A stretch of 32,668 nucleotides of DNA from a virus: IMG/VR virus record IMGVR_UViG_3300029319_000245, positions 1-32,668 of that record. One strand, given 5' to 3'. A program made the translations under genes and the position numbers. The notes under the pieces were generated by a model, which made no database searches, was not told the origin of the DNA, and saw only the letters and a list, made by a program, of their open reading frames with translations. The first letter of the stretch is position 1; each line of letters begins with the position of its first letter. Below, in pieces: positions 714 through 25,995 of the stretch.

Positions 714-811
714 GATGTACTCCTTTGCCAAACAAGTTAAACTAAGTTTAGAGCTTTTCAAGAAAAAAATGTTAGAGAGGTATCTCCCAGTAACATAACC
801 ATGTCACTTTT
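714..811. other. Intergenic stretch with ribosome site only
   Basis: Short AT-rich spacer between the hairpin array and the gene at 423-713. It holds that gene's AAAGGAGT ribosome site and a weak 4-bp inverted repeat (GAGA/TCTC) near 776-787. No open reading frame or clear promoter is seen. Confidence 0.5.
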
Positions 812-943
812 TGGGGGCATAGCCCCCATGTTAAACATAGCCTAGGCGAAGCCTAGACATTTTTAAACATGTCAAGCATAGCTTGACCATATTTAAATTC
901 AGCCTAGGCAAAGCCTAGACAGTTTAACTATGCTAGGTGCTAG
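812..943. repeat. Array of evenly spaced triloop hairpins
   Basis: Four perfect short palindromes: TGGGGGC-ATA-GCCCCCA (812-828), CTAGGC-GAA-GCCTAG (842-856), GTCAAGC-ATA-GCTTGAC (871-887) and CTAGGC-AAA-GCCTAG (904-918). A weaker fifth, CTAG-GTG-CTAG (933-943), overlaps the stop codon of the small terminase gene. Loop centres fall at 820, 849, 879, 911 and 938, about 30 bp or three helical turns apart. The four strong ones are closed as GC-NNN-GC. The segments 839-859 and 901-921 are direct repeats differing at one loop base. Spacers are AT-rich with TTAAA-like cores. No T-run follows on either strand, so these are not ordinary terminators. The position next to the small terminase gene would suit a packaging site, processing site or hairpin promoter array (inference). 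Confidence 0.85.
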
Positions 944-1326
944 TCCAGCTGTATGTTCACTTTCAGCTCACCAACGAGCATGTGCTGATGCCTGTCAGGT
1001 GCTCGGAAGCCTGCTCTATCCAGAATGTCCTTGCTAGCTTCAAGCTGAACATACTCGCTTTTAGCACCTTCGCTAAGTTCCATGAGCTTTCGGCTAGCCT
1101 TCGTAGCGTTCAAGCCAATAGACTCGGTGATCTGTTGCATCATGTAAGCCTGTACGTGTGGAGCCTTCAGAGCCTTGCTCGCACTGACTCTACCTGACTC
1201 GCCTTTGGCATATCCTGCTACTTGGCTAGCCTTTGTAATCGTACATCCAGTAGCTACTAGTGTATCCACTAACACTCTCTGCTTGGCTGTTACATTAGCA
1301 CTGTTACTCGTCGCAATCTTACCCAT
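940..1326 (-). CDS. terS: Terminase small subunit (probable)
   Basis: A 128-aa protein of the Terminase_2/small terminase type, which recognises viral DNA and loads the large subunit for packaging. The N-terminal part has the usual pattern: TAKQRVLVDTLVATG, then a helix-turn-helix with ITKASQVAGYAKG and SASKALKAPHVQAYM (about residues 13-62). The C-terminal EASKDILDRAGFRAPDRHQ is also typical. The large subunit lies in the same direction, about 1.5 kb further on once the window ends are joined. There is no ribosome site before the ATG. A TTGACA at 1356-1361 (minus strand) is placed so that transcription could start at the ATG itself. The gene is visibly richer in G and C than its surroundings. 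It could instead be a related HTH protein, but the context fits TerS. Confidence 0.8.
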   Translation of the reverse strand: MGKIATSNSANVTAKQRVLVDTLVATGCTITKASQVAGYAKGESGRVSASKALKAPHVQAYMMQQITESIGLNATKASRKLMELSEGAKSEYVQLEASKDILDRAGFRAPDRHQHMLVGELKVNIQLD

Positions 1327-18000: not shown

Positions 18001-18337
18001 GCTTTTGATCTATATGTTCAATCATTCTAAAAAAATGATCTTTGTTTCTTGCTTCTGTTAGATCTTTACGAACACCATAATATTTTGGATCAAAATAATA
18101 ATCTCTTGTATCTTCATCTTCCCAAGCTGTCCAAACTTTATATTTAGGCTCATCTGGATGAACACCTTCTTCAGCAACAACATGTCCAAATTCCATAAAA
18201 TTAATTGCATTATTTAAAATAGAACTATATCTATCTCTGTTCATTGCTGTAACAGTTTGAACAAATGTAGGTTTTTCTTTTGGTTCTGTTGAAAAGGTAT
18301 AACCTCTGTTTAATATAGGATTTCTATAATTAACCAT
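15062..18337 (-). CDS. Large internal virion (DNA-ejection) protein, gp16-like
   Basis: A 1091-aa protein in the position of the largest T7 ejection protein, just before the fibre gene. A hydrophobic stretch near residues 125-165 (FIGGLVLDPVNILTIPIPIA and SLFAGATVAPIEL) and another in the C-terminal third (AIGVVAAMGLAYMGLQL) could enter the membrane. Residues about 417-477 form a coiled coil (LQSTQAHLTKLQDDLAFAQK). The last part holds PFTFYSYTFGALSKITARMS and MPFWRLWFLENE. No lysozyme or transglycosylase motif is seen at the N-terminus, unlike T7 gp16. Its ATG touches the preceding stop. The role as part of the trans-envelope channel is inferred from order and size. Confidence 0.8.
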   Translation of the reverse strand: MVNYRNPILNRGYTFSTEPKEKPTFVQTVTAMNRDRYSSILNNAINFMEFGHVVAEEGVHPDEPKYKVWTAWEDEDTRDYYFDPKYYGVRKDLTEARNKDHFFRMIEHIDQKHTDLNTIQNSTWGNFIGGLVLDPVNILTIPIPIAKSKTVFDAIVKSSLFAGATVAPIELARWQTDPLVTGEEAALNTGGSILLSAGIVGGLKGIGNRFQAKAIKQAERETQAFFKAVYANDTPMYKTETGEVVSGARLARMKEVDMLPTIEKPEAIHPNAYLNSFLYTGLTNPEKRILLDTKLPNIVHSTFNKLGSSWTYLLNKNVAGVPSDISVHLRAGPNRAKWIIIEDQLTELYRKDTGITPIGAMDYKIYGWGGFREWTKDINKKYVTGKIDELTKTQKEGLDIMIPFWKEWGKKLEEVGMIGTRRSIQFRLQSTQAHLTKLQDDLAFAQKDAKLKSSVKWYKQAIKDTQAKIQRLQNSLDNATKEVMPANEVFYFPRFWNYSKIKANRQELESIITDWYEKNPYVWKDGVQVKMPFDRASASKRAKETVTNILNERDWTFDNTYSGSRSMHTKHRVLDIPNHLVFDFIEQDPIQVMQAYTAKIAPQYEFRKAFGGKTFEELMHNIRTEVEKTNGIKRANEVVRDFDTVYRRVVTSVLDEPDAMSQIIRRVLVDMAQFNFLGSAGFSTLPDYAAILMQREMGPFWKLAFSILERDKILLNTKEARLAGEAIDIRLGQVQQRLADEISNSPFDRSVYDRLSGKAKQVYFATNLLAPLTTIAKKLEGTLRAHQIIEDSIKWSKGNLSPKDIRINASMGWSIQEAKEIAKLVKKGVAIQKTNAGLWIPNSTEWLENGVKQTTLDKFRSHMNAGIFNTVIMSSPTDKPIIMDGVVYVPWKVAKLIPYMKEDKIVKGYSRIENGLLATPFTFYSYTFGALSKITARMSQNTLHNRAIGVVAAMGLAYMGLQLRYRNKPYILDNMSMPDKIARSFDYSGLGAIYSDLFYKAITTAENLGYPNQYIQPKYISRDKSERMADALLEPAGAPLSWAFDVSRAVRKIAVGDFGEGTNDLLRTMPFWRLWFLENETKELGRVLNRF

Positions 18338-21300
18338 TATTGTTCTCTATAAAAGAAATTATGTATTCTATTTTTAAATTCTGGAGATGCTTCTAAAGCT
18401 TCTCCAACATTTTTATAAAAAGTATCAACACTATTACCAAAATTATTTTTAAACCAATTTTCCCACCATTGACTACCTGATTGTAAATCTAAAGTACCTT
18501 TTGATTGTGGAGGTATATTAATTAATTTATCAGAATAATCTCCACCATCTATAATTATTTCTTCTAATAAAATATCTTCTCTTGATAAACTCTTTTTAAA
18601 ATTAAGATTAGCAATACCCCGTTGTAACATTTGCTTAGCACTATTAGATCCAAGATCAACTTCACCTATCATTTGTAAAGCATCTTCTCTAAAATATTTA
18701 TTAGCACGACCAGCAATATCTATAACTTTTATATCTCTTACTTCTGTATTATAACTTTTTAAAATGGTTTTAGCTAAATTTGGATTATCTCCAATGTCAA
18801 GCCATGTTTCTTTTAAATTTTCATAAAAGGCATTTGCTTCTTTTGCATCTAAAAAATGTGGAAAATCAAGAAGGTTGTAATCCTGAGTAATTCTTTTAAA
18901 TAGTGTATTTATTTGTTCATCTGTTTCTATTGGATAAATTTGTCCATCAAAAACAGTTGGTACAATAAAATGATATTCTGGCATATTTTCACCAATACTC
19001 ATAGAAAAAGTAGCTGACATAACAGTTGATAAAGACCCATCTTTATTTCTTATAGCTTGACCTTTTTCAATATTTTTATAGTGATGCAAGGATAATGAAT
19101 CTAAATCTGTTTGTCTTTGACCTGATATAAGAGGAACAAACATAGGATTTTCTTTTGATCCATCAATATCTACAAATACTGCATATTCATTTTCCTTAGG
19201 TTTTAAAGCATAATAATCCATACCTCTTGGAAAATCTTCATCTGTAAACTGTTCAACACTTTGTCTATTATAATTTTTTAAAGGAACTAATCTAAACCGA
19301 ATTGCATTATTTGTATCTGTTGTAGGAATCATTGTATTAATTTGACCTGTTTTATCTACACCTGTTGGCATAAATGCTTTATATCCATCCATAACAACTG
19401 GTCTATTTAATACTTGATTAACAAAATTTCTTTGCTGTTCTTCTTCAGTTGACTGACTAGAAGCATAATCTAAAAGAGCTGGGTAAATATCACTTATCAT
19501 TATATCAGTCATGGCATTTGTCAAAACTCTTTTTTCTGGCACATATTTTTTAAGTGCATAAGCATTAACATTTATTTTATCAACAGAGTTTGGATTATCA
19601 TAAACTGTTTTAGTTTCAACAAAAATTTTGTTATGCATATTTTTTAAATATGTTTCAGCTTCATCTTTATCATTGATAAAAAATTCAATACCAGAGTTTA
19701 ATATGCCTTCATACATATTTATTGTTTCAAAATCTGTTGGATTTAATTTTAAGGTCTTAACAATAAAACCTCTAAAATTTTGATCTAAATTTTTTCCTTG
19801 TGCATCTTCTACAATTTGTGCTTTTCTTTCTTGATGATTTTCAAGTCTTTGCTTTCTTGATTCAATAGCTTGCTTAAAAGAATCTTCTGTCAAACCCATT
19901 ATACTGTCACCAGCAAACATATCTAATAAAGCTATCCATTTATTTTTTGAATTTTGTTTAATAAAATCAATAGGAACAATATTATGAGAGTCTGATTCCC
20001 TATCAGGATCTCTGTAATTTAAAATAAATTCTATATTCATTAAAAATTGTCTTGGGTCTGCATCTCCAAACTCATACCAATTACCATTTTCTAAAGCACT
20101 AAGAAGATTATACATTTCATTTGGAATGTTTCCATTAGATATAAAATCTAAGAAAATAGGTGATTTTAATAAATCAGGACTACTAAAATAATCTCTTGGT
20201 AACACATCAGGTATTCCATCTCCATTGCTATCTGGAACAAGATATTTATATATATTACTGGTTTCACCAGTAATATCTCCATTTCTTAAACTTAAACTTT
20301 TTAAAATATCTTTATTTTGTGTATTTGTTATATTATTATTTTTTCTTGTTATTTCTATTATATTCTGGAATCGCTGGTTATTATCAAAAATAGAATTTTG
20401 AGTTTGTTTATTTAAAGCTAAATACCAATCTTTAAAATCAGGTGCTACATTATCTATTGCATTCAAGTCACCATTAAAAAAATTCCTTAAAGAGTTTAAT
20501 TCTTGCTCAGTATGATTTCTTTGCAAAACAGCAGATATTGTTGCAGATGCTAAATAAGCGTGTCTATAATCTAATAATTTATTTGTTCTACTATTTGCTT
20601 CATTAGGTGATAATTGACCAGATATTTGCATCATTTTTATTTGTTCTAACAGATAGTTATGAGCATTATTTGCAGCCATCATTTGTTTACTTTCATAAAA
20701 TGCTGGTTGATCACCTATTAATTTATCAATAAGATTTATTTTTTTATTTTTTAATATTGATTCAAATTGATTGTTTATATCTTCTTGTTGCTTGATAATG
20801 TTGTCTGTAAGTTCTGCAAAATATTCTTTAGAAAACTTAGTAACTTCAGATATATTTGCATAATAGTCACCTTTTATTGCTTTAATAAGATCTTTATCCT
20901 TTGTAAATTGAGCAATATTAATCATCAAAGCTTTTTCTTGTTCAGTTGCTTTTGTTGATATTTTAAAACCTTGGCTCACAAAAAGATTGTATGTATTAAT
21001 TTTTTCTTGAACTTTAGATGGATCTTTCTTTATACCATCAAGTAACAAATCAGTTAGTTCAGTATTTAAAGTTCTTATAATTACTTCTTTTTGGTTTTGT
21101 AATTTTGTATATTCTTTTGATTTATCTTTTATATTTGATTGAGATAAAAGTAATCCTTTTTGAATAAGTTGATTAGTTATTGGAATTATTGTATTTGAAT
21201 AATCGTATGGTTTGCTTTCAAAATTAAATTTTTCAATATTAAATAATCCGTCTGCTGGGTTAATATCATTATATTCATTTGAAATTCTTGTTCTTTTTTC

Positions 21301-22434
21301 TGTTTGATAATTTTTTATAATTTCTTTAACTAACTTATCATCTGTAATCTGTCTTTCTTTTAATTCTATTTCAATATTTTCAATATTATTAAAATCTTTT
21401 TGAATATCTTCTAATAAAACATTGGCACTTAATGTTTGCTTAGCAAGTTCTAAATCATTTTGTTTTCCAACAATAAGCTCAGCATTTTTAATTTTATTTA
21501 TTACATTTTGTTGGTCATCTCTGTCTGGTCTTGATCCATAATATGTTTCTAATATATCTTTTAAATAATTTTCATTTGGTAAACCTTCTGGAGTTTTTAT
21601 TAATCCTTCAGTGATTGCCCTTTGAATAAAAAGTTTACCCTCTAACTGCTTAATAATATCTGCTTGTGGTAAAATTTTTGTAATATAATGTGTTAAACTA
21701 CTTCCAGCCCATTGAATCAAACCTTTATTTTTTAATTCTTGTGAAGTACCTGATGTAATTAATCCAGTTTCAATATGTGGCTTATGTGTTTCTGAAAAGG
21801 AATCAGCCATTTGGTTTATTTTTTCTTTACTAACACCATTTACTCCAGCAATACTTGCATTTCTTAAATAATCTTCATTAAGAATACCAAGCGTTATTCT
21901 GTTTTGTTTATTTTCTTCAGCAACAATATTAGCTTGAATAGTTGCATTGCCTTTTATAGAAAGAGTTTCACCAAGTTGATTTGCAATATTAGTAAATTTA
22001 GGATTTGCACCATTTACTTTACCAGTATAATAACTTGTAAAACTTTCTGTAAATGCTTTAGGATTTAAAGAGTATTTTTTAACAAGTTCAATTTGCTTTC
22101 TTTTTAAATCATCTGTAATTCCAAGTTCATATCTTTGATCTATAATTTGATTTTTTGCTAATCTATATGTTCTTCCTGTAAACATATCTTCATTAGCATA
22201 AGCTATTGGATTACCTGTTTTAGTATCTATTGTTATAATATCAGATAAAGTTGCTTCTTGTGCTGCAAGTATTCCTTTTTCTTTTGCAATACTTGTAGCT
22301 CTTGCTGTAAGTTCATTAGAAAAATTACTGAATGATTGAGCTTGTCTTTCTAATGAATTAGCAACACTATTTGCTGAAGAAACATTGACACCAATATTTC
22401 CTGTTCTAACTTGGCTTTTATATACTTTAACCAT
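18337..22434 (-). CDS. Giant internal virion protein, gp15-like
   Basis: A 1365-aa, largely helical and charged protein with many Asn, Lys and Ile. It lies between the gp14-like and gp16-like genes, where T7 encodes gp15. Visible parts: an N-terminal helical region (ANSVANSLERQAQSFSNFSN), a calcium-loop-like segment DSNGDGIPD (735-743), and a C-terminal domain (about 1085-1240) with SLSTVMSATFSMSIGENMPE and YHFIVPTVFDGQIYPIETDE, a pattern found in ejection proteins of other marine podoviruses. It has no RNA-polymerase motifs that I can see. T7 gp15 has 747 residues, so this protein is nearly twice as long. Confidence 0.75.
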   Translation of the reverse strand: MVKVYKSQVRTGNIGVNVSSANSVANSLERQAQSFSNFSNELTARATSIAKEKGILAAQEATLSDIITIDTKTGNPIAYANEDMFTGRTYRLAKNQIIDQRYELGITDDLKRKQIELVKKYSLNPKAFTESFTSYYTGKVNGANPKFTNIANQLGETLSIKGNATIQANIVAEENKQNRITLGILNEDYLRNASIAGVNGVSKEKINQMADSFSETHKPHIETGLITSGTSQELKNKGLIQWAGSSLTHYITKILPQADIIKQLEGKLFIQRAITEGLIKTPEGLPNENYLKDILETYYGSRPDRDDQQNVINKIKNAELIVGKQNDLELAKQTLSANVLLEDIQKDFNNIENIEIELKERQITDDKLVKEIIKNYQTEKRTRISNEYNDINPADGLFNIEKFNFESKPYDYSNTIIPITNQLIQKGLLLSQSNIKDKSKEYTKLQNQKEVIIRTLNTELTDLLLDGIKKDPSKVQEKINTYNLFVSQGFKISTKATEQEKALMINIAQFTKDKDLIKAIKGDYYANISEVTKFSKEYFAELTDNIIKQQEDINNQFESILKNKKINLIDKLIGDQPAFYESKQMMAANNAHNYLLEQIKMMQISGQLSPNEANSRTNKLLDYRHAYLASATISAVLQRNHTEQELNSLRNFFNGDLNAIDNVAPDFKDWYLALNKQTQNSIFDNNQRFQNIIEITRKNNNITNTQNKDILKSLSLRNGDITGETSNIYKYLVPDSNGDGIPDVLPRDYFSSPDLLKSPIFLDFISNGNIPNEMYNLLSALENGNWYEFGDADPRQFLMNIEFILNYRDPDRESDSHNIVPIDFIKQNSKNKWIALLDMFAGDSIMGLTEDSFKQAIESRKQRLENHQERKAQIVEDAQGKNLDQNFRGFIVKTLKLNPTDFETINMYEGILNSGIEFFINDKDEAETYLKNMHNKIFVETKTVYDNPNSVDKINVNAYALKKYVPEKRVLTNAMTDIMISDIYPALLDYASSQSTEEEQQRNFVNQVLNRPVVMDGYKAFMPTGVDKTGQINTMIPTTDTNNAIRFRLVPLKNYNRQSVEQFTDEDFPRGMDYYALKPKENEYAVFVDIDGSKENPMFVPLISGQRQTDLDSLSLHHYKNIEKGQAIRNKDGSLSTVMSATFSMSIGENMPEYHFIVPTVFDGQIYPIETDEQINTLFKRITQDYNLLDFPHFLDAKEANAFYENLKETWLDIGDNPNLAKTILKSYNTEVRDIKVIDIAGRANKYFREDALQMIGEVDLGSNSAKQMLQRGIANLNFKKSLSREDILLEEIIIDGGDYSDKLINIPPQSKGTLDLQSGSQWWENWFKNNFGNSVDTFYKNVGEALEASPEFKNRIHNFFYREQ

Positions 22435-25972: not shown

Positions 25973-25995
25973 TAGGGAGGGCTAAGCCCTCCCTA
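25973..25995. terminator. 10-bp triloop hairpin between capsid and tail genes
   Basis: TAGGGAGGGC-TAA-GCCCTCCCTA: a perfect 10-bp, GC-rich stem with a 3-nt loop, closed as GC-NNN-GC like the hairpins at 812-918. On the transcribed minus strand no T-run follows (ACATATC), so it looks more like an attenuator, RNA-stabilising or processing hairpin. It lies in the 37-nt gap before the tail tube A gene. Confidence 0.8.

Follow-up and report, generated by a model that had tools for sequence, protein, structure and literature searches.

A short region beside the small terminase gene (terS) of this viral genome carries a row of hairpins with three-base loops, and the question is what such a row is and how it came to be there. 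We analyzed the whole virus record of 32,668 bases, referred to below as the window, together with relatives gathered by TerS and TerL searches (about 120 with terS). The group in question is related to a Pelagibacter phage. The answer concerns the probable origin of its striking hairpin array, as well as what the array is not.

Genome setting and architecture of the hairpin row

The window has the gene set of a podovirus. Profile matches identified TerS, TerL, a head-tail adaptor, the capsid, and tail tube proteins, and an internal virion protein with an endolysin domain and a T7-type tail fiber N-terminus are also encoded. The early genes run rightward from position 1620, and terS (940-1326, minus strand) and the late genes run leftward. 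Matches to PF03592 and phrog_2538 agree with the first-pass annotation, which had taken the gene next to the hairpins for a small terminase. Downstream, terS is followed on its strand by a DUF6321/phrog_4689 gene (423-761), whose true start codon is probably internal to that frame. A TerL and TerS protein search found Pelagibacter phage EXVC031P Hodr as the nearest named phage (64% identity for TerL and 63% for TerS); no nucleotide-level relatives of the window were found among named phages. For a 1,365-amino-acid protein at the position of an internal virion protein (18337-22434), searches of Pfam, PHROGs, and PDB sequences gave nothing.

There are four perfect palindromes of the GC-NNN-GC triloop form, at 812-828, 842-856, 871-887, and 904-918. 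Their plus-strand loops (ATA, GAA, ATA, and AAA) are centered on 820, 849, 879, and 911, with spacings of 29, 30, and 32, as originally described. The window has 7 GC-rich triloop hairpins with stems of at least 6, where 2.0 would be expected, and its densest 132 nt contain four. When the whole window was shuffled 300 times with its dinucleotides preserved, no stretch of that length had more than two. The hairpin row is therefore real and far beyond chance.

RNA and DNA folding resolved positions 830-928 as a single imperfect nested palindrome (z scores of -7.8 for RNA and -5.4 for DNA), drawn as a rod or a cloverleaf and closed by GTTAAAC (830-836) and GTTTAAC (922-928). Its dyad center is the central hairpin HP2 (862-897), with the core GTCAAGC-ATA-GCTTGAC at 871-887 and TTTAAA arms. 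On one side lies HP3 (840-858; core CTAGGC-GAA-GCCTAG at 842-856), which reaches 8 bp with a G.U pair on the terS-sense strand, and on the other lies HP1 (902-920; core CTAGGC-AAA-GCCTAG at 904-918), which has the same stem. HP4 (TGGGGGC-ATA-GCCCCCA, 812-828) stands apart from this palindrome in both foldings. The four hairpins are thus not independent units, and the near-even spacing of HP1 to HP3 arises largely because 830-928 has dyad symmetry. Nor do the stems simply differ in sequence, as had been stated, since the two CTAGGC hairpins are identical, also in both array-bearing relatives. A weak fifth hairpin, CTAG-GTG-CTAG (933-943), had been included in the row. With a stem of only 4 bp, an overlap with the stop codon of terS, and no conservation in relatives, it was excluded from the element.

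An optional palindrome and a conserved block beside terS

The gap was taken to run from the terS stop codon to a conserved block whose first elements are a G-run and an A-run. Across 101 relatives the gap had a median length of 10 nt (range, 1 to 228); in the window it is filled by the array. Two of the three closest relatives, L191 and L176, share the palindrome, and their CTAGGC stems are identical to those of the window. The third, L082, has an unrelated 34-nt gap without hairpins despite the same gene order and a terS that is 91% identical, so that the expectation that relatives with the same genes would keep the array failed. The terS cluster with the palindrome in the window, L191, and L176 and none in L082 is thus mixed. 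Gap palindromes occurred in 6 of 33 terS clusters, 5 of which were mixed, and in other clades the gap has either unrelated hairpins or no hairpins at all. Because the median gap is so short, the nested palindrome is optional; it sits in a non-essential gap and is dispensable to the lineage. The post-terS gap of L016, L017, L033, and L037 has another stem-loop, also optional, in which two pairs are changed on both sides.

The block that follows the gap (751-828, minus strand; G-run and A-run through to TCTAACATTTTTTTCTTGAAAAGCTC in the window) has a regular order. Behind the terS stop codon come the G-run, the A-run, about 35 variable bases, CACTnACATTATT, and then AAAAAGGTTCG or a close variant. 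It was present in nearly all terS relatives, about 100 (among L001-L150), while the gap before it was not conserved. As a candidate packaging site (cos or pac), this block is to be preferred to the hairpin array. The cos and pac sites of other phages likewise lie next to terS, where the conserved block lies here; the difference is that the block is separate from the hairpin array. Contig ends did not cluster at the G-run/A-run block and so gave no support for a cut there. The array had been put forward as a packaging site bound by TerS. The hairpins do adjoin the probable packaging region, but an array required by TerS or for packaging is disfavored by the 10-nt median gap and by L082, which lacks the array; what about 100 relatives keep is the adjacent block. 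The block would then be the probable packaging site for a large group of uncultured marine podoviruses. The palindrome itself is ordinary in being dispensable to the lineage; it is of interest for its DNA-type triloops and for the neighboring conserved, probably packaging-related block.

A DNA-type triloop signature in the gaps

In the 26 gaps of at least 40 nt, 26 perfect palindromes were found compared to 4.1 expected, whereas the neighboring block showed no excess (12 versus 18 expected). The density of triloops was 4.8/kb in gaps and 1.2/kb in coding DNA. A 5'C..G3' closing pair was present in 26 of the 31 gap triloops (84%, versus 19% in coding and 23% in other non-coding DNA; P = 4e-14), and 12 of these 26 C-G-closed triloops had GNA or TNC loops (46%, versus 10% in coding DNA; P = 2e-5), with both P values being too small, as many of the counted loops are related by descent. 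GC-NNN-GC closing accounted for 18 of the 31 (58%) compared to 6% in coding DNA. The oligonucleotide d(GCGAAGC) is known to form a DNA mini-hairpin of exceptional stability (used in, e.g., PMC4686876). The attention first drawn to GCGAAGC, a DNA-type GNA triloop, was justified, as the signature is real across the group. Stable RNA is expected to favor GNRA or UNCG tetraloops. None of these occurred among the palindromes listed for gaps of at least 40 nt, and the combination of DNA-type triloops with a lack of such tetraloops favors a DNA-level cause. The gap triloops carry a signature of DNA stability, which argues for a cause at that level. The GNA preference was absent in the GTCAAGC-NNN-GCTTGAC loops of unselected viral contigs.

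Origin of the palindrome and competing explanations

We propose, with a probability of about 0.48, that this is an optional nested palindrome beside a probable packaging site that arose, and is kept perfect, through hairpin-primed template switching. In this process a 3' end would fold back on a GC-NNN-GC seed and copy the flank, yielding a perfect palindrome, and terminase cuts at the adjacent packaging site may repeatedly make resected ends, favoring template switching there. Such fold-back and copying would produce constant inner pairs, perfect but arbitrary outer stems, and optional presence, and the palindrome need not have a required function. Inversion of the spacer (loop) and homogenization of the arms are signatures of template switching (PMC8604942). 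The palindromes of the window have perfect arms, and one loop inversion was found, with the central loop being TAT in the window and the exact reverse complement, ATA, on the same stem in L191. Perfect short-loop inverted repeats, arm homogenization, and loop inversion between relatives are thus shared with the template-switch palindromes of that study; those of the window differ in their nesting, in their GC-NNN-GC seeds, and in their concentration next to a putative packaging site. HP4 lies within the conserved block, where the G-run has been rewritten as a G-run-loop-C-run palindrome before the A-run. Counting the window, 10 of 101 relatives show the same rewriting, indicating that palindromes probably arose here on more than one occasion. 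Two proteins of the phage, a YqaJ-type nuclease and a Rad52-like protein with a weak match, are also counted in favor of birth by template switching. The HP1 and HP3 stems, which stay the same in three genomes although terS DNA varies among them by 5 to 15%, count against it; together with the two-sided changes in the closing stem, they could reflect selection. The lack of contig-end clustering at the block also counts against it. The broader idea that terminase-made ends fold on GC-GNA-GC mini-hairpins and prime synthesis, with the gap generating new palindromes and structured RNA in marine phages, is doubtful. If end-primed birth is true, new palindromes would arise preferentially at packaging sites, which would connect packaging with recombination and with the origin of structured elements.

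Selection at the RNA level is the main and serious rival to this birth by template switching, and RNA processing is possible. Once transcribed, the palindrome would fold into a strong rod, which could serve as an insulator or be a target of processing. As an element of the late transcript, a rod after terS would stop exonucleases or act as an RNase III substrate, so that terS would be uncoupled from the genes after it. We consider this the less probable explanation, although the folding energies lend it weight. On the terS-sense strand the rod of about 45 pairs has a folding energy of -54.8 to -62.7 kcal/mol and contains three to four G.U pairs; for the complement the values are -40.5 to -47.5 kcal/mol and none or one. 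The sense-strand advantage of 11 to 15 kcal/mol in three genomes exceeds that of shuffles (z scores of -1.9, -2.4, and -3.9) and suggests an RNA-level constraint, with base composition accounting for part of the advantage and the three genomes not being independent. The closing stem is kept with different complementary pairs (GTTAAAC/GTTTAAC in the window, TGGTGTTA/TAACACCA in L191, and GTTGTTAT/ATAACAAC in L176) and shifts register among the three in the alignment. In a second clade (L016, L033, and L037), the optional stem has two two-sided changes, GTATTTGC/GCAAATAC versus GTAGTTGT/ACAACTAC. However, template switching can also produce complementary arms, the loops are of the DNA type and not the tetraloops of stable RNA, close relatives lack the palindrome, and an Rfam search gave no match. 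The processing hairpins of phage T7 uncouple neighboring genes by RNase III. They too are long intergenic hairpins with internal loops between cotranscribed genes; the window palindrome differs in being optional in close relatives and in its DNA-type triloops.

The remaining explanations are all improbable, to different degrees. An accessory role in packaging, with hairpins about three turns apart helping TerS rings or terminase assemble at the neighboring site, would fit the position beside terS and the conserved block, the specificity of the palindrome enrichment to the post-terS gap, and the identical CTAGGC repeats kept in three genomes. We nevertheless regard it as unlikely, as L082, with its closely similar terS, and most relatives have no hairpins and the gap is typically about 10 nt. 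A small mobile palindromic element of the REP or MITE type is very unlikely. The array is indeed optional, nested, and palindromic, but nhmmer found no second copy in the window or the other fetched loci, and a search with the hairpin pattern matched L176, L191, a further viral contig, and three scattered contigs from genomes, and nothing else. We give still less credence to hairpin promoters of the N4 type, read by a virion RNA polymerase, which the first-pass annotation had raised as a candidate. The likeness to the early promoter hairpins of phage N4 lies in the 5- to 7-bp stems, 3-nt loops, C-G closing, and some GNA loops, and the GNA loops are mostly on the would-be template strand for the late genes. 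N4 promoter hairpins need a G..A loop and the closing pair to extrude (PMC4496689), and only one of the four loops (GAA, plus strand) has this form. Sequence comparison with Pfam, PHROGs, and PDB sequences gave no polymerase match, including for the 1,091- and 1,365-amino-acid virion proteins, and the array lies mid-operon and is not conserved, either in its loops or in its positions. The hairpins had also been judged not to be simple terminators, and no proper T-run follows them. Intrinsic terminators were rejected as a candidate, with HP4, HP2, and HP1 lacking T-runs and three weak hairpin/T-run sites found compared to 1.1 expected.

Inverted repeats were also seen outside the gap. Upstream of terS, 93 relatives together had 88 inverted repeats of at least 9 bp, compared to 15 expected. 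A very long hairpin of about 45 bp lies between the divergent early and late operons (1440-1619 in the window), and a similar one is present in phage Hodr (L197, 5660-5830). A perfect 10-bp hairpin, TAGGGAGGGC-TAA-GCCCTCCCTA, lies at 25973-25995 between a tail gene and an 88-amino-acid open reading frame, and a hairpin of L005 has the same GGGAGGGC inner stem.
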